DNA from: Ignavibacteria bacterium
GTDB lineage: Bacteria; Bacteroidota; Ignavibacteria; Ignavibacteriales; SURF-24
Reading direction: 5' to 3'
Length of the DNA stretch: 64,000 bases
Assembly: GCA_025612375.1 (NCBI GenBank)
Contig: JAAXKN010000022.1
Span: 7,502-71,501 of the forward strand
Shown: piece by piece, positions 3,905-64,000 of the stretch
How the letters are laid out: each line of letters begins with the position of its first letter
Numbering within the stretch: position 1 is the first letter of the stretch
Notes under the pieces: generated by a model
What the model was told of the DNA's origin: nothing
The model's input: only the letters and a program-made list of their open reading frames with translations
The model's database searches: none
Made by a program: the position numbers and the translations under genes

Positions 3905-6184
3905 TCATTCCGAGAACGAATACGGCATATCGCCCTTCGCCGTTCCCCTGCTTTTGTTGGGTTTACTGCTCATGCGGAATTCAAGGCTGCCGCCTTGTAT
4001 CAGGTCCTGGTGCGTCAGGAAATTTTTGGTGTAGTCTTTGCCGTTAAGTGATGCTTTATCGATATAGATGTTCTCATGCGAATTGTCACTGGCTTCAATG
4101 GTAAAGGTTTTTCCGTTTTCGAGGTGGAGCACGGCTTTGCTGAATAAGGGGGATCCGAATACGTACTCCCCTGCCGCGGGGCATACGGAGTACATGCCCA
4201 AGGCTGAAAGTACATACCACGCGCTTGTCTGACCGTTATCCTCGTCGCCGCAGAGGCCGTCGGGCTCGGGAGTGTAAAGTACGTCCATTGCCTCACGCGC
4301 GTGCGCCTGAGCCTTCCAGGGCTCGCCCGCGTAGTTGTAAAGGTATATTGCGTGCTGAACGGGCTGGTTGCCGTGAGCGTACTGACCCATGCCCGCAATT
4401 ACCATTTCCGTAATCTCGTGTATCTGCACTCCGTAATATGAATAGTCGAACGTGGGGGCTGAGGTAAATAAAGAGTCGAGCTTTGCCGTAAATTTCTCCC
4501 TTCCGCCCATGAGGTTCATCAGTCCCGCGGGGTCATGAAATACGGCCCATGTGTAATGCCAGGCGCATCCTTCAGTAAAGGCGTCGCCCCATTTGTCGGG
4601 CCTGAAGGGGCTCTGGAATGTGCCGCTGCTGTTTCTTCCGCGCATGAAGCCAGTGGACTTGTCAAAGACGTTTTTGTAGTTCATGGAGCGTCTGGCAAAG
4701 CGGTCTGTTTCATCTTTGGGGCGGCCGAGCGCCTGTGCGAGCTTCCATATTGCAAAGTCGTCGTAGCTGTATTCAAGCGTGCGGGCGGCGTTTTCATTGA
4801 TTTTGACGTCGTAAGGCACGTAGCCAAGCGAATTGTAATACTTTACGCCGCGGCGGCCTACGGATTCAAGCGGGCCTTCATTTTCGGAGTTCTTCAGTAT
4901 GGCTTCATAAAGTTTATTTATGTCGTATCCCCTTATGCCGTTAAGGTATGTGCCTGCAATAACGGAAGCCGAGTTGGAGCCTATCATGCAGTCGCGGTGG
5001 CCGGGGCTTGCCCATTCGGGTAGCCATCCGCTTTCGTTGTAGGTATTTACAAGTCCCTCCATAATATGGCTGCATAGTCCGGGCTGCATTATTGTTAGTA
5101 GCGGGAAAGCCGCGCGGAAGGTGTCCCAGAAGCCGTTATCTGTAAACATGTAGCCCGGATGAACCACACCGTCGTAGGGGCTGTAGTGGACAACTTTATT
5201 ATCCTTATCCATTTCATAAAGTCCCCTTGGAAAAAGCATGGTTCTGTAGAGCGCAGTGTAGAAGGTTTTCATCTGGCTTTCGGTGCCGCCTTCAATTTCA
5301 ATTCTGGACAAGCCGTCATTCCACACTTTTTCAGCTTTAGTCATGGTTTCGGTAAATGAATCGTTTCCTATTTCCCTTTTCAGGTTCAGCTCCGCCTGAT
5401 CAAAGCTTATAAAAGATGAAGCGGTACGGATGTGGACTGTTTCATTTTCATTAGTTTTGAATTTTACCGCGGCCATTACGTGATCTGCTGTTTCTTCTGT
5501 TCTGCCGGGGAATATTCCCTTTTCGCTCCATGTACAGACTGAATCTATTTCCTTATCAAAATAAACGACGAAGTAGTTATGAAAGTTTTCCGGGACGCCG
5601 CCTTTGTTGTTGCGGCAGTAGCCTATTAGTTTTTTTTCTTTTGGAATGACCTTTATATATGAGCCTTTGTTGAAGGCATCTATAAGTAGGTAGGAGTTAT
5701 CCGTCTTGGGATACTTTACCCGGAACTGCGCTGCGCGTTCGGTGGGGGTTATTTCAACCGAGACGTTATAGTCGCCCAGGTATACCTGATAGTAGTAAGG
5801 CTTTGCAATTTCCCTTTTATGGCTGAACCAGGAGGCGCGTTCGTCCTCAGGAAATTTAAGCGTGCCGGTAATGGGCATAATAGAGAAGCTGCCGTAGTCG
5901 CCAATCCACGGTGAGGGCTGGTGGGTCTGGCGGAAGCCTTTAATTTTATATTCATCGTATGTATACATCCAGCCGCTGCCCATTTTGCCCGTCTGTGGCG
6001 ACCAGAAGTTCATAGCCCAGGGAAGAGCAATGGCAGGGTAAGTGTTGCCGTTGGAGAGTTTATAATCCGAGTCCGTGCCGACGAGCGGGTTAACCAGGCC
6101 AGCCGGGTTAATTTTTTTTGCGCCCTTATCTCCGGCGGAGACAATTGCAGTAAGCAGTAAAACAGTCATCAGGATTCTTTTCAT
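3905..6184 (-). CDS. Glycoside hydrolase family 92 alpha-mannosidase (first copy)
   Basis: A calcium-dependent inverting exo-alpha-mannosidase (GH92, typically alpha-1,2) of about 759 residues. I place the start at the ATG at 6184, preceded by GGGAG six bases upstream and followed by the signal peptide MKRILMTVLLLTAIVSA; the longer ORF to 6250 adds an unlikely leader. The N-terminal beta-sandwich (starting VNPLVGTDSDYKLSNGNTYP) is followed by the (alpha/alpha)6 catalytic domain. Family hallmarks include DNGFWDTFRAAFPL, the GWLPEWASPG region, GCAWHYTWAVFHDP, HGNQPVQHAIYLYNYAG and GLCGDEDNGQTSAWY, the last supplying acidic catalytic and calcium ligands. It has no T9SS tail, so it is probably periplasmic. 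The gene is flanked on both sides by hairpin elements. Confidence 0.94.
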   Translation of the reverse strand: MKRILMTVLLLTAIVSAGDKGAKKINPAGLVNPLVGTDSDYKLSNGNTYPAIALPWAMNFWSPQTGKMGSGWMYTYDEYKIKGFRQTHQPSPWIGDYGSFSIMPITGTLKFPEDERASWFSHKREIAKPYYYQVYLGDYNVSVEITPTERAAQFRVKYPKTDNSYLLIDAFNKGSYIKVIPKEKKLIGYCRNNKGGVPENFHNYFVVYFDKEIDSVCTWSEKGIFPGRTEETADHVMAAVKFKTNENETVHIRTASSFISFDQAELNLKREIGNDSFTETMTKAEKVWNDGLSRIEIEGGTESQMKTFYTALYRTMLFPRGLYEMDKDNKVVHYSPYDGVVHPGYMFTDNGFWDTFRAAFPLLTIMQPGLCSHIMEGLVNTYNESGWLPEWASPGHRDCMIGSNSASVIAGTYLNGIRGYDINKLYEAILKNSENEGPLESVGRRGVKYYNSLGYVPYDVKINENAARTLEYSYDDFAIWKLAQALGRPKDETDRFARRSMNYKNVFDKSTGFMRGRNSSGTFQSPFRPDKWGDAFTEGCAWHYTWAVFHDPAGLMNLMGGREKFTAKLDSLFTSAPTFDYSYYGVQIHEITEMVIAGMGQYAHGNQPVQHAIYLYNYAGEPWKAQAHAREAMDVLYTPEPDGLCGDEDNGQTSAWYVLSALGMYSVCPAAGEYVFGSPLFSKAVLHLENGKTFTIEASDNSHENIYIDKASLNGKDYTKNFLTHQDLIQGGSLEFRMSSKPNKSRGTAKGDMPYSFSE

Positions 6185-6259
6185 AATACTCCCGGTATGT
6201 GTGAAAATAGTTTTACAAATGTAATGAAATTTGCGGGAATTTGTGTGCATGGGTTTTAT

Positions 6260-6429
6260 GAATAGCCCTGACCTTTAGGTCGGGGTGGATCAATACGCAC
6301 CCACACCCTCGGGCTTTAGCCCCCGATCATTCGGGGAAAATCCCGCATTGCGATGGGAAATCTGGGGCTAAAGCCCATTTGGGGAGAGGGGGAATTTCCG
6401 GTTCCACGAGCTAAAGCTCGTGGCTATTC
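6260..6429. repeat. Second composite hairpin element (GAATAGCC ends)
   Basis: Ends GAATAGCC (6260-6267) and GGCTATTC (6422-6429) are inverted. Each leads into a hairpin with a CTTTAG/CTAAAG core: GACCTTTAGGTC near 6270, GAGCTAAAGCTC near 6409. Two more CTTTAG/CTAAAG hairpins lie inside (near 6311 and 6363). It has the same plan as 3550-3853, but the stem sequences differ while the core is kept. Confidence 0.8.
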
Positions 6430-6442
6430 AAAAAAATAAGAA

Positions 6443-6460
6443 AGCCCTCCGAGGAGGGCT
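6443..6460. terminator. Hairpin copy matching the GH92 terminator
   Basis: AGCCCTCC-GA-GGAGGGCT with flanking A-runs, almost identical to 3867-3884. No minus-strand gene ends here, so it is better viewed as part of the repeat element that can also act as a terminator. Confidence 0.4.
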
Positions 6461-6568
6461 CAAAAACCTCGAATCCTGCGCTTCGGGAACCTCGAACTTT
6501 GATCTATTATTCTTATATTTGGATCATTAATCCGGAATATTTTTCAAATTAAATACAGGAATTATTAA

Positions 6569-7561
6569 ATGACTTACCTGCCATCTGCCTCCAGATATGA
6601 GGGCATGACGTATAAAAGATGCGGCAAGAGCGGCCTTAAGCTTCCTCTTATATCGCTGGGACTCTGGATGAATTTCGGCGGCGTGAATATCTATGAAAAC
6701 AGCCGCAGTATGCTATTCAGGGCTTTCGACCTTGGAATTACACATTTCGACCTGGCAAATAACTACGGACCTCCCTACGGCAGCGCCGAGGAAACTTTCG
6801 GCAGCGTTATGGAACGCGACCTCAGGCCTTACCGCGATGAGCTTGTAATATCGACCAAAGCGGGCTACGATATGTGGCCGGGTCCATACGGCAACTGGGG
6901 ATCGAGGAAGTACATCATTTCAAGCCTCGACCAGAGCCTGAAGAGAATGAAGCTGGATTATGTGGATATTTTCTACCACCACAGGCCCGATCCCGAGACT
7001 CCCGTTGAGGAATCCATGATGGCGCTGGACCAGATAGTCCGTTCAGGCAAGGCTCTTTATGCGGGCATTTCAAATTACAGTGCCGAGCAGACAAAAAAGG
7101 CGGTTGAGATTATGAAGGAGCTCAAGACGCCATTTATTATCCACCAGGCAAAGTATAACATGTTCAACCGCTGGATTGAGGACGGACTGTTGGATGTGCT
7201 GGATAAAAACGGCATGGGATGCATTGTGTTCTCCCCGCTGGCGCAGGGACTCCTTACAGATAAGTACCTCAAAGGCATACCCGAAGGCTCACGCGCGTCA
7301 AAAAGCTACAGCTCGCTTAAGGACCAGATTACAGACGACAAGGTTAGAAAGCTGAACGACCTGAACAATATGGCAAAAGAGCGCAACCAGACTCTGGCGC
7401 AGATGGCGCTTGCATGGACTATGAGGCTTCCGGGTGTAACTTCAACGCTAATAGGCGCAAGCCGTGTTGAGCACATAAACGACGCCATCGCCCTCCTTAA
7501 GAACACCTCGTTCAGCGAAGAGGAGATTAAGAGGATAGATTCTATTTTGTACAGCCTCTGA
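6569..7561 (+). CDS. gpr: Aldo/keto reductase, L-glyceraldehyde 3-phosphate/methylglyoxal reductase type
   Basis: A cytosolic NADPH-dependent aldo/keto reductase of 330 residues, close along its whole length to E. coli YghZ/Gpr as I remember it. Shared stretches include RCGKSGLKLP, GITHFDLANNYGPP, STKAGYDMWPGPYG, SLDQSLKRM and FSPLAQGLLTDKYL. The catalytic tetrad is visible: Asp and Tyr in FDLANNYG, Lys in STKAG, His in FYHHRPD. The C-terminal TSTLIGASRVEH segment is the cofactor phosphate-binding part. The family detoxifies methylglyoxal and reduces short aldehydes. It is a single gene on the plus strand between two minus-strand blocks, with its own terminator. Exact substrate cannot be read from sequence. 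Confidence 0.92.
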   Translation: MTYLPSASRYEGMTYKRCGKSGLKLPLISLGLWMNFGGVNIYENSRSMLFRAFDLGITHFDLANNYGPPYGSAEETFGSVMERDLRPYRDELVISTKAGYDMWPGPYGNWGSRKYIISSLDQSLKRMKLDYVDIFYHHRPDPETPVEESMMALDQIVRSGKALYAGISNYSAEQTKKAVEIMKELKTPFIIHQAKYNMFNRWIEDGLLDVLDKNGMGCIVFSPLAQGLLTDKYLKGIPEGSRASKSYSSLKDQITDDKVRKLNDLNNMAKERNQTLAQMALAWTMRLPGVTSTLIGASRVEHINDAIALLKNTSFSEEEIKRIDSILYSL

Positions 7562-7594
7562 TTTTTTGGGGGAATGTCTATGCACCCCAAAAAA

Positions 7595-55162: not shown

Positions 55163-55197
55163 TTGACTTGCTAATAATAACGGAAAGCGTTATTATT
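55163..55197 (+). promoter_or_regulatory. higBA promoter with overlapping operator
   Basis: A perfect inverted repeat, AATAATAACG (55173-55182) and CGTTATTATT (55188-55197) with a 5-base spacer, lies directly in front of higB. It overlaps a plausible promoter (TTGCTA at 55168, 17-bp spacing, TATTAT at 55191). Likely the HigA binding site. Confidence 0.75.
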
Positions 55198-55204
55198 GCA
55201 TTAT

Positions 55205-55486
55205 ATGATACGCTCATTTAAGAACTCGGATTCCGAGAAGATATTCAACCGGGAACACTCACGGGCGGTCCCGGCAAATCTCCTTGAAAAAGCATGGGTA
55301 AAATTAGCAATGATTCATGCTGCTGTGAGATTGGAAGATTTAAGAGTTCCTCCTGGCAATAAGCTGGAAAAACTGAGCGGGGACCGTGAAGGGCAATTCA
55401 GCATCAGAATAAATCAGAAATACCGTATTTGTTTTTACTGGCAGGATTCTAATGCCTTTGATGTTGAAGTAACTGATTATCATTAG
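55205..55486 (+). CDS. higB: HigB/RelE-type mRNA-interferase toxin
   Basis: 93 residues from the ATG at 55205 (MIRSFKNSDSEKIF), the normal start position for HigB; a TTG three codons earlier lies within the operator. The RelE/ParE fold is indicated by RAVPANLLEKAWVKLAMIHAA, LEDLRVPPGNKLEKLSGDREGQFSIRIN and KYRICFYW...EVTDYH. HigB toxins cut translated mRNA on the ribosome; the Arg/Lys/His residues in the RINQKYRICF and TDYH segments correspond to the active-site region. Toxin-first gene order is characteristic of higBA. higA follows 51 bases downstream. Confidence 0.9.
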   Translation: MIRSFKNSDSEKIFNREHSRAVPANLLEKAWVKLAMIHAAVRLEDLRVPPGNKLEKLSGDREGQFSIRINQKYRICFYWQDSNAFDVEVTDYH

Positions 55487-55537
55487 TTTTGCAAAGAATG
55501 CAGAAGCTTTCTGCTATAATAAAGAAAGGTTATTTAT

Positions 55538-55864
55538 ATGAAAACCGGAAAAGAAACAGTTAAGAAATTCGCCCCGGTACATCCAGGGAAGATACTGCTT
55601 GAAGAGTTTCTGGAGCCAATGGAAATCACACAGTACAGGCTTGCCAAGGAGATTAATGTTCCGGCAAGGCGTATTAATGAGATAGTGCATGGAGAAAGGG
55701 GAATTACGCCCGATACCTCCTTAAGGCTTGCAAAGTTTTTCGGAATGTCCGAGACATTCTGGCTGAACCTGCAGAACCTTTATGATGTTGAAGTTCTGAA
55801 AGATCAGCTGCAGGATGTATTGAGAAGCATTCATTCCTATTCCGGGATGCAGAAAGCATCATAA
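55538..55864 (+). CDS. higA: HigA antitoxin, XRE family
   Basis: 108 residues. The family start VHPGKILLEEFLEPMEITQYRLAKEINVP leads into the HTH (ARRINEIVHGERGITPDTSLRLAKFFG) and the conserved SETFWLNLQNLYDVE helix. HigA neutralises HigB and represses the operon by binding the palindrome upstream of higB. It ends with a hairpin terminator. No sign of decay in either partner. Confidence 0.93.
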   Translation: MKTGKETVKKFAPVHPGKILLEEFLEPMEITQYRLAKEINVPARRINEIVHGERGITPDTSLRLAKFFGMSETFWLNLQNLYDVEVLKDQLQDVLRSIHSYSGMQKAS

Positions 55865-58118: not shown

Positions 58119-58499
58119 ATGAAAATAAATTTTTGGAAACCGGCACTAGCTACAGGCATTATTAAATTAACCGTTCACAGAGATGGGAACATGGGATTTT
58201 CAAGCGGCGCAGTAAAGAAATTAAATATTGATGAAAAAAGCTACGTAAAAATCGGCACTAATGGATCCGATACAAGAGATAGTAATTTATATCTTATGCA
58301 TACAAATGACTTTGATGAAAACGCACTTAAAGTAAATAAGGCTGGAGACTACTATTACCTTAATACAAAAAGCTTTTTCAATGAATTAAATATCGATTAT
58401 ACAAAAAAAAAGCTTGTATATGATATTGTTGAAATGGACTACGATGGCAATACTATATATAAGCTGATTAGAAGAGAACTTGAAAGAAAGAAGAAATAA
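58119..58499 (+). CDS. Small protein of unknown function at the head of the defence block
   Basis: 126 residues from ATG 58119, behind a good promoter and AAGGA; the open frame extends to 57879, but that part overlaps the promoter. The protein is basic, with a beta-rich start (TGIIKLTVHRDGNMGFSSGAVKKLNI) and middle (DSNLYLMHTNDFDENALKV, YYYLNTKSFFNEL), and ends in RRELERKKK. There is no signal or membrane segment. I do not recognise the family. Codon usage is AT-rich like the genes that follow, so it probably travels with the defence block. Linkage to it is inferred from position (123-bp gap). Confidence 0.65.
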   Translation: MKINFWKPALATGIIKLTVHRDGNMGFSSGAVKKLNIDEKSYVKIGTNGSDTRDSNLYLMHTNDFDENALKVNKAGDYYYLNTKSFFNELNIDYTKKKLVYDIVEMDYDGNTIYKLIRRELERKKK

Positions 58500-58622
58500 T
58501 ACTTAACTATAAAATATGCAAGAATATATTTCCACAAAAGGACTAGATAACTGAGAACTAAAGATCTCTGAGCCCAAGAATGATGATTATAGATCATTAA
58601 CAATTACACTAAAGGTATCAAA

Positions 58623-60497
58623 ATGTCAAGAGGTTGGATATTTGACGAACCACCTGCTTCAGGGAAAAGACTTATGGGCGATCCCGCCGAACAAGTATTT
58701 GCAACAGATTTATCTACATTCATCAGAGAGGTAATTCAAAATACAAAAGATCAAAAAGAAGAGGATCAAAAATCCCCTGCCCAAATTACATTTAAATTTA
58801 TCGAGTTGTCTGGTGAAGAGCTTCATGAATTCCTAAATAAAATAGAATGGGATAATCTCAGAGAGCATATCAAAACCAGCAGGAATGGAAATAAGGGTGC
58901 GAAACTGAAAAGAGCGCTTGAAGAGATTGAAAAAAAGAAAAAACTTTTGCTCTTAATAATTGAAGAAAAAAATACAAGCGGCTTGTGCGGTCCTGAATTC
59001 GGATATGAAGAACCAATACACGAAAGGATGAATTTTTCATCTTTAGTCCGAGATGAATTATTTAGCAATAAACAATCTGGCAATGCTGGAGGGAGTCACG
59101 GGCTGGGCAAGGCTGTATTATGGGCATTTTCAAAAATTTCAGTCGTGTTCTTTAATTCACACTTGAAATATGTTGGGAAGACACAGGAAACATGCAGACT
59201 GATAGGACGAGCAAACCTAACTTGGCATGAAATCGGCAAGGACAAATATACCGCAGACGGTTGGTATGGGAATATAGAAAGCATTTCCCAAGGAAAGAGA
59301 TCTGTATCCATGTGGGGAAATAATGCGGAAGAATTTGCTGAAAAAATTAAGATTGGAAGAGGTTCAGAAATTCAATCCGGCACTTCTATATTAATCGCGG
59401 GATTTTACGAGCCAAATGAAGATAAAGAAAGGGAAATAGAAGAAATAATTGCCGATATGGAGAAAGCTGTTCTAGAATGGTTTTGGCCCTGTATTTTCTG
59501 CTCTGCTCCCAGTCTTGAAGTTTCTTTCGAATTATGGGAAAACAAAAAACTCCGACTTCACAAGGACATTAAGGAAGAGGGAATCTCAAGTCCATTTGTA
59601 AAGGCTTTAAAGGCATATGAAAGCGGTACATTAAAAGAAAAGTTAACCAGCATTGGAGATGTAATAAAAAGAGAAATAGAAGTTGCTATCCCCCCTAGAA
59701 TAGATAGTTCAGGTCATACGACTCATTGCAAAGCAACTTTAATAATAAGATTATCTGACCCTAAAGAGGAAAAATATAGGATAAACTACTTAGGTTTTTT
59801 TCGTGGATCACGAATGATAATTAAGTATGAAAACAAACAAGATATTTCAATGACCGCAAAGCCCTTCCATGCCTTTTTAGTTTGCGGGAAGGGCAGAATT
59901 GAAAATGATCCATGCAATGAAACATTGGAAATTTTTCTAACTACAGCCGAACCTCCGTCACATAATGATTGGGATGCTTATTCTAAACTGCATGAATTTT
60001 ATAAACGAGGCTCTAATTCTGCACTAGCCGAAATGAAAAGAAACGTTTATAATGTCCTTAGAAAAGAGGTTTCAGAAGATATTCCTCAAGGACAAGAAGG
60101 GCCCAAACTGCTGCAGCAGAAATTCCGGCTGGGGAAAGGAGAAGCAGGGGGAGGTGAAAAACGCTTATTTAAATTTGATAATATGAGCGCCTATCTGAAA
60201 AATGACATTTGGAATTTTAAAGGTAGAATCAAAGCAAATCCTGAAATAAAGAAGAACTGGACAGCTGAAGTTAAGTTTCAGTTTCTTGATGAAGAAAACG
60301 AAACAGAGAATGCAATTATTAATAAATTAACGGTATCAACTGGAAATTCTAAAATCATAGATCATAAGGCAATAATAAACGTTCCTGCGGGGAGAAATGT
60401 AGTCGAATTTAGCGGCGATACAAGACCTGATTCTTATCCGGTTGACCCAGATTCCTGCAAAGTTCAAATAAACATTGCTGCAAAGGAGGAAGATTAA
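58623..60497 (+). CDS. GHKL-type ATPase (MORC/MutL-like) of a restriction-linked defence system
   Basis: 624 residues. ATP-binding motifs of the GHK superfamily are visible in order: N-box E36-xxx-N40-xx-D43 in FIREVIQNTKDQ; motif II in IIEEKNTSGL (114-121), where the usual Asp appears replaced by Glu115; and the glycine-rich lid GGSHGLGKAVLW (156-167). A charged helical insert (about 60-107) separates motifs I and II. The second half (330-480) is a beta-rich S5-like region with basic residues (RGSRMIIKYENK), then a C-terminal beta domain after residue 520. Related ATPases occur beside Vsr, Dcm and PLD nucleases. It is translationally coupled (TAATG) to the next gene and may act as the ATP-driven clamp that licenses cleavage. 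Confidence 0.82.
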   Translation: MSRGWIFDEPPASGKRLMGDPAEQVFATDLSTFIREVIQNTKDQKEEDQKSPAQITFKFIELSGEELHEFLNKIEWDNLREHIKTSRNGNKGAKLKRALEEIEKKKKLLLLIIEEKNTSGLCGPEFGYEEPIHERMNFSSLVRDELFSNKQSGNAGGSHGLGKAVLWAFSKISVVFFNSHLKYVGKTQETCRLIGRANLTWHEIGKDKYTADGWYGNIESISQGKRSVSMWGNNAEEFAEKIKIGRGSEIQSGTSILIAGFYEPNEDKEREIEEIIADMEKAVLEWFWPCIFCSAPSLEVSFELWENKKLRLHKDIKEEGISSPFVKALKAYESGTLKEKLTSIGDVIKREIEVAIPPRIDSSGHTTHCKATLIIRLSDPKEEKYRINYLGFFRGSRMIIKYENKQDISMTAKPFHAFLVCGKGRIENDPCNETLEIFLTTAEPPSHNDWDAYSKLHEFYKRGSNSALAEMKRNVYNVLRKEVSEDIPQGQEGPKLLQQKFRLGKGEAGGGEKRLFKFDNMSAYLKNDIWNFKGRIKANPEIKKNWTAEVKFQFLDEENETENAIINKLTVSTGNSKIIDHKAIINVPAGRNVVEFSGDTRPDSYPVDPDSCKVQINIAAKEED

Positions 60498-61492
60498 TGG
60501 TCTTAATAACAAAAAAGGAGGTTTTTTATCCTTATAGCTATTTAAACTCTCAAATAGAATTAACCATCTCTTCTTTTTTACTCGATCATAAAGAAAAAAT
60601 GGAATTTGTTGATAAAGATAATTTTACAATTGATTTAACAGATCAGAACTGGGATAAAGCCGCCATCAAACTTTCAATTGAACTAGACGGTAATTGGATC
60701 AATGACGTATTTCCATTTCCTGAATCCTACTCACCGGGGTATGAGGCATTGATTATATATTCGTGTAAAGAAGCAAAATGGCGGAAATTCATAAAAATGC
60801 AGGCAGTGGAAGGAAATACGAAATGGGAAGGAGAGCTCAAAATTGATAAAAAAGATATTTCGAATGAAGTACAGTTTTCATTCGTGATAGTAAGATCTGC
60901 AGATTCTCCAGATCCCGTATCAGGCTATGCAAAACGAATGGGCGAAAAAATCCTATCCTCAAATGAATGGAAGCTTGTCATCTATAAGTCTTCAGCAATT
61001 CCGGGACAGCATCTTCATATAGAGTGGGAGAATTTTAGCCAATCTCGAAATAAGATTAGGAAAAAATACAAAAATGAGATGTATTATTTAGATTTTGAGG
61101 GTGATGCACCGAAACTCTACCTAAATGAAGGTATACCAAATTTAAAAGTTTATTTTGAAAATAAGAGTCATTATGGTAAAGTATCGGCAATCAGAGATGC
61201 TATTTTTAACAATATTAGTCAATCAATATGGCAGGCGCTAATCCTTTCCTCAAGTATCGGGATAAAGAAAGCTGAGGAATTATCTGATTGGCAGAAAGCA
61301 GTACTTTTACAATTTGTTCATAAAGTAATAGATAATTCGGAAAATGAAAAAATTCTTGATGAATTTCTCTCCAGAATAAATGATTATCAAAGATTTGCTG
61401 AAATTTTCTCACATCTACAGCTAGTAATAAGTCAGAAGATTAATACTGAGAAAGCTATATCCTCTCTATTAAACATAACTTGGACAGAGTAA
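60497..61492 (+). CDS. Unknown protein, defence-block component
   Basis: 331 residues; the start overlaps the ATPase stop by one base (TAATG) and has a full AAAGGAGG site, so the two are made together. The N-terminal ~170 residues are beta-rich (AAIKLSIELDGNWINDVFPFPES, EVQFSFVIVRSAD), resembling a beta-sandwich. The C-terminal third is helical (AIRDAIFNNISQSIWQALILSSSI, ILDEFLSRINDYQRFAEIFSHLQ). I see no nuclease, helicase or methylase motif. I do not recognise the family. Tight coupling implies a partner of the ATPase, perhaps an adaptor. Confidence 0.7.
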   Translation: MVLITKKEVFYPYSYLNSQIELTISSFLLDHKEKMEFVDKDNFTIDLTDQNWDKAAIKLSIELDGNWINDVFPFPESYSPGYEALIIYSCKEAKWRKFIKMQAVEGNTKWEGELKIDKKDISNEVQFSFVIVRSADSPDPVSGYAKRMGEKILSSNEWKLVIYKSSAIPGQHLHIEWENFSQSRNKIRKKYKNEMYYLDFEGDAPKLYLNEGIPNLKVYFENKSHYGKVSAIRDAIFNNISQSIWQALILSSSIGIKKAEELSDWQKAVLLQFVHKVIDNSENEKILDEFLSRINDYQRFAEIFSHLQLVISQKINTEKAISSLLNITWTE

Positions 61493-61495
61493 ACA

Positions 61496-62161
61496 ATGGA
61501 ACTAAAGAAACTTAACAAAAATGGGCAGAAATTTGTAGATGAAGAATTCCTGTCTGGCGATAGCGATAAAGTCCTCCCAAATGATTCAGATCTGTATGAA
61601 GATTTTGGAAGAAAAGTTGATCTGACGGAGCTGAAAAAAGCAGTCGATTTTTGCATCAATAAATATCCCAAGTATGATCCAGGTATTGATGCATATCTTG
61701 CTCCGATAATTCATAAAGAGTTAAATCTAACTCCTGGAGAAGCTGCCGACAAAGAGATTTGGTTCTTTCTATCTGTTGCACAATTTCCCGAACTTGTGAG
61801 GCATAGATGGAAACCCTTTGAGTCAACAATTACCAGGGATAGATTTCTTGGCGAGATAAGGAAGAATACCTTTTATAGACTCTGGCTTGGTGCTCAGCTT
61901 ACACAAAAGGACGGGAATTATAATCTCACAAGTAAACTTTTTAAAGCCGGACAGCAATTTGTCGATGATTGCATGGAAAGAAGATGCAGTCAAACATATG
62001 ATTCTATCAATTCCCTGGTAGAGAATCTGTCAGCTAAGAATCGAAAGATTTATAGGTCAGTTATAAAGAAGTATATGCAGCGTCTTTCATTGACTGTACT
62101 TGAATATCTTGATAAGGATAAATCCGAGAAAATGTTGTCCGAAATTGAAAGCAAGCTCTAG
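61496..62161 (+). CDS. Unknown protein, possibly DUF6339 family; defence-block component
   Basis: 221 residues, mostly helical, starting three bases after the preceding stop. Conserved-looking stretches are DKEIWFFLSVAQFPELVRHRWKP, ITRDRFLGEIRKNTFYRLWLGAQLTQKDG and YNLTSKLF. From memory this resembles DUF6339 proteins found beside cytosine methylases in restriction loci; I could not verify that. No catalytic motif is evident. It sits between the ATPase pair and the Vsr gene, all in one direction, so it belongs to the same operon. Confidence 0.65.
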   Translation: MELKKLNKNGQKFVDEEFLSGDSDKVLPNDSDLYEDFGRKVDLTELKKAVDFCINKYPKYDPGIDAYLAPIIHKELNLTPGEAADKEIWFFLSVAQFPELVRHRWKPFESTITRDRFLGEIRKNTFYRLWLGAQLTQKDGNYNLTSKLFKAGQQFVDDCMERRCSQTYDSINSLVENLSAKNRKIYRSVIKKYMQRLSLTVLEYLDKDKSEKMLSEIESKL

Positions 62162-62213
62162 ATTCAAAGATAGCCTAAAAGTATAATGAGAAATAAATAA
62201 AAGGTTGTTCATA

Positions 62214-62639
62214 TTGGCAGATCATTTATCAAAGGAGAAACGAAGCTGGAATATGAGCCGGATCCGCTCAAAGAATTCCAAACCCGAGCTAATTGTAAGA
62301 TCATTTTTACACAAACAAGGATTCAGATTCAGATTGTACAGCGCAGTATTACCGGGTAAGCCTGATCTCGTTTTATCAAAATACAAAACTGTTATATTTA
62401 TTCAAGGATGTTTTTGGCACAGGCATCCAAATTGCAGCAGAGCAACAATGCCAAAGTCAAACATTATTTATTGGAGAAAAAAATTTGAATCTAACCAGCA
62501 AAGAGATAAGTCAGTAAAAAGAAGTTTAGAAAAACTTGGATGGAAAGTGATTACGGTGTGGGAATGTGAGTTAACTAGACCCCAAAAGAAGGATCATACT
62601 TTAGAAAGTATTGTTAAGAAAATCACTAAATCAGATTGA
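62214..62639 (+). CDS. vsr: Vsr-type very-short-patch-repair/patch endonuclease
   Basis: 141 residues if started at the TTG at 62214, nine bases after AAAGG; this gives MADHLSKEKRSWNMSRIRSK, the normal Vsr opening. In this frame Glu25 (KPEL), Asp51 (GKPDLV) and His69/His71 (CFWHRH) coincide with E. coli Vsr numbering as I recall it, but position 64 is Gln (FIQGCFWH) instead of His. The zinc-site Cys66 and Cys74 are present, and VITVWECEL near the C-terminus is typical. Vsr nicks T:G mismatches that arise from deaminated 5-methylcytosine. Beside a cytosine methylase it may serve repair or be the effector nuclease. Confidence 0.87.
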   Translation: MADHLSKEKRSWNMSRIRSKNSKPELIVRSFLHKQGFRFRLYSAVLPGKPDLVLSKYKTVIFIQGCFWHRHPNCSRATMPKSNIIYWRKKFESNQQRDKSVKRSLEKLGWKVITVWECELTRPQKKDHTLESIVKKITKSD

Positions 62640-62709
62640 TATTGTATTGGGTTAATGCGTATTATTGAAATCAAAATATTTCGAATTAGAATACTATAAA
62701 AAGGACAAT

Positions 62710-63777
62710 ATGGTCTTTAGACTTGGAGAACTGTTTAGTGGTCCAGGGGGGATTGGACTAGCTGCAAAAATGGCAAAAGCCTGTACAGATAAAGAAGTTT
62801 TTGAAATTTCACATGTCTGGGCAACAGATTATGATAAAGATTCTTGTGCGACTTTCCGCAATAATATATGCCCCGACAATCCCAAAAGTGTAATTTGCGA
62901 GGATATTCGGAAGCTGGATTACAATAAACTTCTTAATATTTCAAAAATAGATGCTCTTGCTTTTGGATTTCCCTGCAATGATTTTAGCGTCGTAGGTGAA
63001 CAGAAAGGCATGGATGGTATTTATGGACCATTATATGAATATGGTGTAAAAGCATTAAAATTTTTCAAACCTAAATGGTTTCTTGCAGAAAATGTTGGTG
63101 GACTTAGAAATTCAAACGATGGAACAGCCTTTGATAAGATATTGAGTGAGCTATCCAGTGCTGGATACTTAGTATATCCTCATCTTTATAAGTTCGACCT
63201 GTATGGCGTTCCTCAATCAAGACATAGGATTATAATAATCGGAATAAGAAAGGATTTGAATATAAAATTTGGTATTCCTTCACCACTTCCTTATAAGGCT
63301 ATCAATGTAAGCTGTAAAAATGCTATTGAGAATCCTCCAATACCAAAAGATGCGCCAAATAATGAGCTTACTAATCAATCTGACGTTGTAATTGAAAGAC
63401 TGAAGTATATTAAGCAGGGCGAAAATGCTTTTACAGCTGATCTCCCCCAACATCTAAAATTAAACGTAAAGAGTGCAAAAATAAGTCAAATATACAAAAG
63501 ATTAGATGAATCTAAACCTGCTTATACAATAACAGGAAGCGGAGGCGGCGGGACACATGTTTACCACTGGAAGGAAAATCGTGCGTTGACAAATAGAGAG
63601 CGGGCTAGGCTCCAAACATTTCCTGATACTTTTATTTTCTCTGGTTCCAAAGAAAGTGTCCGTAAGCAAATAGGAATGGCTGTTCCCCCTTCGGGAGTTA
63701 AGATTATTTTAGAATCGGTCCTTAAAAGTTTCGCCGGAATTGAATATCCACAAATTACATCTAATATTGAGATTTAG
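62710..63777 (+). CDS. dcm: C5-cytosine DNA methyltransferase (Dcm family)
   Basis: 355 residues from ATG 62710 (AAGGA four bases upstream), which puts motif I (GELFSGPGGIGLA) at the N-terminus as usual. Motif IV is FGFPCNDFSVVG with catalytic Cys89. Motif VI is ENVGGL, motif VIII QSRHRIIIIG, a late conserved block PAYTITGSGGGGTH (target-recognition/IX boundary) and RERARLQTFPDTF; motif X is QIGMAVPPSGVK. The recognition domain is short. It methylates cytosine C5 in host DNA, giving the self mark for the linked nuclease system and creating the substrate class repaired by Vsr. The recognition site cannot be read from sequence. Confidence 0.93.
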   Translation: MVFRLGELFSGPGGIGLAAKMAKACTDKEVFEISHVWATDYDKDSCATFRNNICPDNPKSVICEDIRKLDYNKLLNISKIDALAFGFPCNDFSVVGEQKGMDGIYGPLYEYGVKALKFFKPKWFLAENVGGLRNSNDGTAFDKILSELSSAGYLVYPHLYKFDLYGVPQSRHRIIIIGIRKDLNIKFGIPSPLPYKAINVSCKNAIENPPIPKDAPNNELTNQSDVVIERLKYIKQGENAFTADLPQHLKLNVKSAKISQIYKRLDESKPAYTITGSGGGGTHVYHWKENRALTNRERARLQTFPDTFIFSGSKESVRKQIGMAVPPSGVKIILESVLKSFAGIEYPQITSNIEI

Positions 63778-63857
63778 AATTGGAAGGATAGCGGATTTAC
63801 AATAATAATTTACTCGAAATAAACTTTGGGTAACTCTGGAATAAATGGAGACGTTAT

Positions 63858-64000
63858 ATGCTGACAGGTCATCTTATTAAATCAATTCTTATTGAGCCTG
63901 TAAAAAAAGGGGCTGATAGTCTTTTTATTGTATCAGGTTTTGCTTCTCCTACGATGGCATCTAAACATATAGAATTAATTGAAGAGAAACTAAAAACACA
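63858..64000 (+). CDS. PLD-like restriction endonuclease, 3'-truncated by window end
   Basis: The ATG at 63858 follows GGAG eight bases upstream and opens a frame that is still open at 64000 (47 residues visible). The stretch DSLFIVSGFASPTMASKHIE resembles the start of phospholipase-D-superfamily restriction nucleases (NgoFVII-like), where a strand ending in SG(Y/F)AS precedes the HKD site. The catalytic part is outside the window, so this is provisional. It is 80 bases downstream of dcm in the same direction and would be the cleaving subunit of the system. Confidence 0.55.
   Translation, partial: MLTGHLIKSILIEPVKKGADSLFIVSGFASPTMASKHIELIEEKLKT

Follow-up and report, generated by a model that had tools for sequence, protein, structure and literature searches.

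Known systems related to the locus

For GHKL ATPases encoded in restriction loci, an analysis from 2008 (Iyer, Abhiman and Aravind 2008, PMC2292703) predicted a role in manipulating DNA superstructure and kinship with the ancestors of the eukaryotic MORC silencers; the signature given there for one such family, paraMORC2, in which an S5-fold domain follows the GHKL ATPase domain, is ExxxH. The literature searched yielded no experimental test of paraMORC2 proteins. VcSduA (GHKL Shedu type I-D, paraMORC3), in which a GHKL ATPase and a nuclease are joined in one protein, has been proven to act in phage defense; its model is an entwined dimer whose middle domain resembles a clamp (PMC12137116). 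The restriction-modification (R-M) systems CglI and NgoAVII combine a DNA methylase with a PLD+B3 nuclease that needs a DEAD-Z1 ATPase to cut DNA (PMC4267653). In NgoFVII-type type II R-M, a C5 methylase adjoins a PLD+B3 nuclease. Finally, PDC-M33 is a candidate system in PADLOC-DB 2.0.0, of which no description was found in the literature searched.

The operon analyzed here is built from parts that are known, namely, paraMORC2, PDC-M33 and NgoFVII-type R-M, and is a compact version with one apparent transcription unit and no helicase. No description of its fixed three-gene core (hereafter A-B-C), of the exchange of partners around this core or of the helicase-free combination with a PLD+B3 nuclease was found in the literature searched. 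In the best reading of the data, A-B-C is a portable, ATP-driven DNA-surveillance module, presumably acting on DNA directly, that works beside R-M systems.

Organization of the operon

The window is the whole 64,000-nucleotide stretch that was analyzed (C22:7502-71501 of genome G000); the same contig ends at 73534. The following genes are located at the end of the window:

58119..58499, + strand: X, 126 aa, member of a small family with dispersed occurrence (open reading frame; the phylum has homologs in 5 further genomes, none at A-B-C loci)
58623..60497, + strand: A, paraMORC2-like GHKL ATPase, 624 aa (PDC-M33A in PADLOC, E 1.6e-23; conservation across 85 homologs)
60497..61492, + strand: B, 331 aa (no family match; AlphaFold2 pLDDT 90.7; 3' of A in 89/89 copies)
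61496..62161, + strand: C, DUF6339 protein, 221 aa (Pfam E 8.4e-12; PDC-M33C E 1.4e-8)
62205..62639, + strand: Vsr mismatch endonuclease (TIGR00632, 139 bits against a cut-off of 97.85; Pfam Vsr E 1.4e-29)
62665..63777, + strand: M, C5-cytosine DNA methyltransferase (Pfam DNA_methylase E 1.3e-73; motifs)
63858..64000, + strand: R, NgoFVII-type PLD+B3 restriction nuclease, start in the window (RE_NgoFVII E 2.9e-38; RE_NgoFVII_C E 9.7e-40)

The operon thus runs in the order A (GHKL ATPase), B, C (DUF6339), Vsr, C5 methylase and R. As the sequence-only reading had described, the genes are co-directional, tightly spaced and AT-richer than their surroundings: all are on the plus strand up to a single terminator, and the G+C content of 58119-63777 is 35.3%, compared to 47.1% for positions 1-57800 of the window. 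The translational coupling of the ATPase to the next protein, also proposed there, is borne out by a 1-base overlap (TAATG) at the A/B junction; C starts 3 bases past the end of B.

The sequence-only reading further saw a Vsr nuclease and a C5 methylase, on which Pfam and NCBIfam agree, and the start of a PLD nuclease at the window edge. The DNA beyond position 64000, obtained from the same contig, completes this frame as R (C22:71359-72333, 324 aa), which matches both RE_NgoFVII and RE_NgoFVII_C. Downstream of R, folding predicts a strong terminator hairpin (-22.1 kcal/mol, z -5.3), which a generic terminator scan does not list because its stem extends into the T-tract.

No helicase is encoded in the operon and no Z1 domain was detected in the whole genome (5.2 Mb, 140 contigs), with Corynebacterium glutamicum, the home of CglI, as the positive control; the lack of an obvious helicase or Z1-type protein, as initially perceived, therefore extends, for Z1, to the entire genome. 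The terminator 3' of R indicates that no helicase is concealed further down the operon, and a hidden downstream helicase was rejected on this ground, given also that the contig ends 1.2 kb later and that Z1 is missing from the genome.

The X family is present in 6 of the 297 genomes, in a dispersed manner. Because none of the other A-B-C loci contains a member of this family, X was rejected as a core component and probably does not belong to the core. By eye, members of the family in the phylum are near HNH, DUF262-like or TIR-like genes; X is possibly a small defense-island protein.

The ATPase and the proteins encoded with it

The A protein contains the motifs R35EVIQN, N117TSGLCG, G156GSHGLGK, S252GTS and E443PPSH447. 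It falls below the threshold for every Pfam family and matches none of the Pfam HATPase models; nevertheless, its initial recognition as a GHKL ATPase holds, with the nucleotide-binding motifs invariant or nearly so across 85 homologs. In E443-P-P-x-H447, E and H are present in 100% of these sequences (family form E-P-P/x-x-H), whereas the MORC motif (GhXhhpXXRhl in S5) is found in 0 of the 85. By its ExxxH signature, A is a paraMORC2-like GHKL ATPase, and the classification of A as a MORC proper was rejected. The link initially drawn to the GHKL ATPases of R-M loci surveyed by Iyer et al. was right. In the available text of that survey (PMC2292703), paraMORC2 resembles A in its GHKL motifs, ExxxH and lack of the MORC motif, and resembles the loci studied here in its C5 methylase and Vsr neighborhoods and patchy distribution; the same text, as far as available, does not describe a fixed A-B-C triple, and the present operon differs from those it covers in having no helicase and an NgoFVII-type PLD+B3 nuclease. 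VcSduA (PMC12137116) likewise is a paraMORC-group GHKL ATPase in phage defense, but its nuclease is fused, whereas Pfam detects neither DUF4263 nor any other recognized nuclease domain in A.

Of the two proteins initially listed as unknown, B has no family match in Pfam, NCBIfam or PADLOC, whereas C belongs to DUF6339/PDC-M33C. The similarity to PDC-M33 (A to PDLC04582, E 1.6e-23; C to PDLC04586, E 1.4e-8), which is seen also in the homologs, is distant, and neither B of the window nor B of four other loci matched any PADLOC model. Structures were predicted with homologs from plasmid records left out. The model of B, the ATPase-coupled protein to which no fold could initially be assigned, consists of a beta-sandwich N-terminal half and a helical C-terminal half (AlphaFold2 pLDDT 90.7, pTM 0.64, the latter leaving the domain packing unsure), and its Foldseek matches are generic beta-sandwiches with low TM-scores. 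The model of C is mostly helical and confident (pLDDT 94.8), with no match to its fold in PDB (best Foldseek E 2.1) or among viral structures. No DNA-binding or nuclease motif or family was detected in B or C, and profile searches of A, B and C revealed neither an HTH nor any other regulatory domain. A nuclease role of B or C was rejected, with no support from families, PDB or structures.

The Vsr-methylase-nuclease cassette

The methylase M has the motifs PC (F-P-C-N), ENV and RHR, and may actually start at an ATG near 62710. The R protein combines a PLD nuclease domain, with HxK at H95 and GSANYT at 113, with a B3-like DNA-binding domain, and is distantly similar to R.NgoVII, the structure of which is known (4rct). 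In a tree of 89 methylases (FastTree; the support values are approximate, and a letter make-up warning applies to the window row), M of the window clusters, with support of 98-100, with M of M-R pairs that lack A-B-C (up to 71% identity), and is not grouped with the methylases of other A-B-C loci. Elsewhere in the phylum, NgoFVII-type R is located beside a C5 methylase, sometimes with Vsr, and with neither A-B-C nor a recognizable helicase (L120, L121, L123); in L122, it is accompanied by a broken-up methylase frame and Vsr, and L124 is more distant.

Because M clusters with A-B-C-free M-R pairs, Vsr-M-R can be considered a separate cassette and, judging by gene content, is an NgoFVII-type type II R-M cassette in its own right. 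Like CglI and NgoAVII (PMC4267653), it includes a DNA methylase and a PLD+B3 nuclease, but the operon lacks the DEAD-Z1 N-protein and contains Vsr and the GHKL module instead. Given that the close R-M relatives lack A-B-C and an adjacent recognizable helicase, R of the NgoFVII-type subfamily probably cuts alone.

Distribution and partners of A-B-C

Among 84,980 species genomes scanned, 75 loci were recovered, which represent the best 80 of the 217 matches that were confirmed; being based on two peptide patterns, this is a lower bound. The loci among these best matches come from actinobacteria, Myxococcota, haloarchaea and others, so that A-B-C, already catalogued as a defense candidate, occurs in many bacteria and archaea; none was found in viral contigs. 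The neighborhood comparison suggested by the sequence-only reading shows that the three genes are kept together: for each of the 89 A copies that have 2 kb or more of sequence on the 3' side, B and C come next, in this order and on the same strand, across Bacteria and haloarchaea, an arrangement that exceeds chance, and the A and B genes most often overlap by just 4 bases or 1 base. In some loci, B or C seemed to be lost, but this resulted from over-long ORF calls and disappeared when domain coordinates were used. Neither of the two outcomes that the sequence-only reading had named as refuting it occurred, the A-B-C neighborhood being conserved and the frame past the window edge being a nuclease.

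The partners, by contrast with this fixed core, vary. Within loci of at least 18 kb, a C5 methylase is located at most 6 kb from 59 of the 71 A-B-C copies, and Vsr is found within the same distance of 23; the methylases of A-B-C loci represent several unrelated, distant lineages of the methylase tree. Seven loci from Myxococcota have no C5 methylase within reach, suggesting that methylation may not be essential. A second genome (G262) encodes A-B-C beside M, Vsr and NgoFVII-type R, plus a FokI-like nuclease. Outside actinobacteria, HhH-GPD glycosylases, which are also suited to the repair of m5C damage, are the commonest other neighbor family (11 of the 75 proteins scanned), and are present at haloarchaeal loci, some of which adjoin DISARM genes. 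In actinobacteria, the genes bordering A-B-C loci encode an SF2 helicase with a sacsin-like part or a UvrD-like helicase, or belong to Mza. Although Mza and DISARM are neighbors of A-B-C in actinobacteria and haloarchaea, respectively, the Z1 helicase, DrmA and DrmB are all absent among the operon proteins. Thus, A-B-C swaps partners and yet stays intact, which argues against its being tied to any single methylase or nuclease.

Several further features of these loci were recorded. In eight haloarchaeal loci (L021, L023, L027, L033, L036, L037, L041 and L048), two A-B-C sets, most of them complete, are oppositely oriented close to a single C5 methylase; such paired sets possibly encode heterodimeric ATPases. 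A 508-aa family adjacent to A-B-C (L029:3108-4634 and 11 other haloarchaeal loci) displays, by eye, residues of a GIY-YIG nuclease (GxY, YxGE, R, E, N), with no Pfam match, and the neighboring protein, at about 258 aa, looks like a C5 methylase on visual inspection. The C5 methylases of L026, L030 and L013, at about 580-640 aa, are long enough for a fused repair domain, e.g., a glycosylase.

Proposed mechanism and alternative explanations

We consider it reasonably probable that the operon consists of two cooperating, separable modules, with A-B-C likely functioning as an ATP-gated clamp beside an NgoFVII-type R-M cassette. In this scheme, M would place m5C on the host DNA, R, a PLD nuclease guided by its B3 domain, would cut DNA that lacks the mark, and Vsr would mend T:G mismatches that result from m5C deamination. 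GHKL ATPases form closed dimers when they bind ATP, and by analogy A would do the same. Most likely, A, B and C together would form a clamp that loads onto invading DNA and either stalls this DNA or passes it to a nuclease. The reading draws on the constant A-B-C order, the conserved GHKL and ExxxH motifs, the C5 methylase, Vsr and HhH-GPD neighbors, the grouping of M with A-B-C-free pairs, the second locus in G262 and the precedent of VcSduA. Observed in the sequences are the genes and the end of the operon, the intact motifs and a conserved A-B-C that is separable from R-M; DNA clamping, a defense role and cooperation with R-M are inferred. Adjacency of the modules does not prove joint action, and no experiments on A-B-C were found in the literature searched. 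A more doubtful extension, which we put forward tentatively, is that A-B-C is an as yet undescribed, portable ATP-driven DNA-clamp defense module in which C has a new fold; in Bacteria and Archaea alike, it would combine with unrelated C5 R-M cassettes and license or reinforce whichever nuclease is encoded alongside.

The sequence-only reading treated the genes as a single defense system. One six-gene system was rejected, with M-R pairs lacking A-B-C, and A-B-C lacking R, found elsewhere; what emerges instead is an A-B-C module beside an R-M cassette that also occurs alone. A narrower version of this idea, in which A-B-C replaces the DEAD-Z1 N-protein as the ATP-dependent partner of R, making all of the operon a single ATP-dependent restriction system, draws on the architecture that R shares with R.NgoAVII and CglI, both of which require an ATPase (PMC4267653), on the missing N-protein and Z1, with the C. 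glutamicum control positive, and on the presence of R nearby in the two genomes of the phylum sample that clearly contain A-B-C. Nevertheless, this explanation appears quite improbable considering that the close R-M relatives (L120, L121, L123) do without A-B-C or a recognizable adjacent helicase, and that R was found at no other A-B-C locus among the 75 scanned (best 80 of 217 matches).

The opposite possibility is that A-B-C is a fully independent defense system (PDC-M33) that only shares an island with R-M cassettes, Mza and DISARM. The Myxococcota copies without a nearby methylase, the matches of A and C to the PDC-M33 candidate and the wide variation of neighbors all point in this direction; however, the proximity of a C5 methylase to 59 of 71 copies is, in our judgment (no expectation was calculated), above island co-location, and the operon genes are co-directional to one terminator, so we regard full independence as unlikely. 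Pairing with several unrelated R-M cassettes would be compatible also with A-B-C regulating or safeguarding the cassette, through its expression or by limiting self-damage, but this is highly improbable for proteins that contain no HTH or other regulatory domain and that, in Myxococcota, are free-standing. Returning to the clamp beside an R-M cassette, the clean split between the two modules makes the role of the ATPase beside R-M directly testable, and A-B-C is a defined minimal unit for structural work, including C, the fold of which has no PDB match.

Acquisition and genomic surroundings

The operon is horizontally acquired. The A gene is absent from 58 of 58 relatives, and in a genome of the same genus (G001), the flanking genes are common to both and the operon is absent. 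R-M cassettes appear to turn over in this neighborhood. Near the equivalent site in G001 (L141, G001:C37:17000-36000, 4754-7568), there is a different R-M cassette, a Vsr-C5 methylase fusion followed by an EcoRII-type nuclease.

On the 3' side of the operon terminator, an orphan frame of 294 aa (L002:7611-8495), unrelated to the operon, shows an HD-like pattern by eye. The terminal 54 bases of contig C22 are the start of contig C38 in reverse, indicating an assembly break at a repeat. Just upstream of the operon, at window positions 55196-55864, there are frames resembling a HigB/HigA-type toxin-antitoxin pair, with HTH_3 in the second frame and the toxin part recognized by eye.
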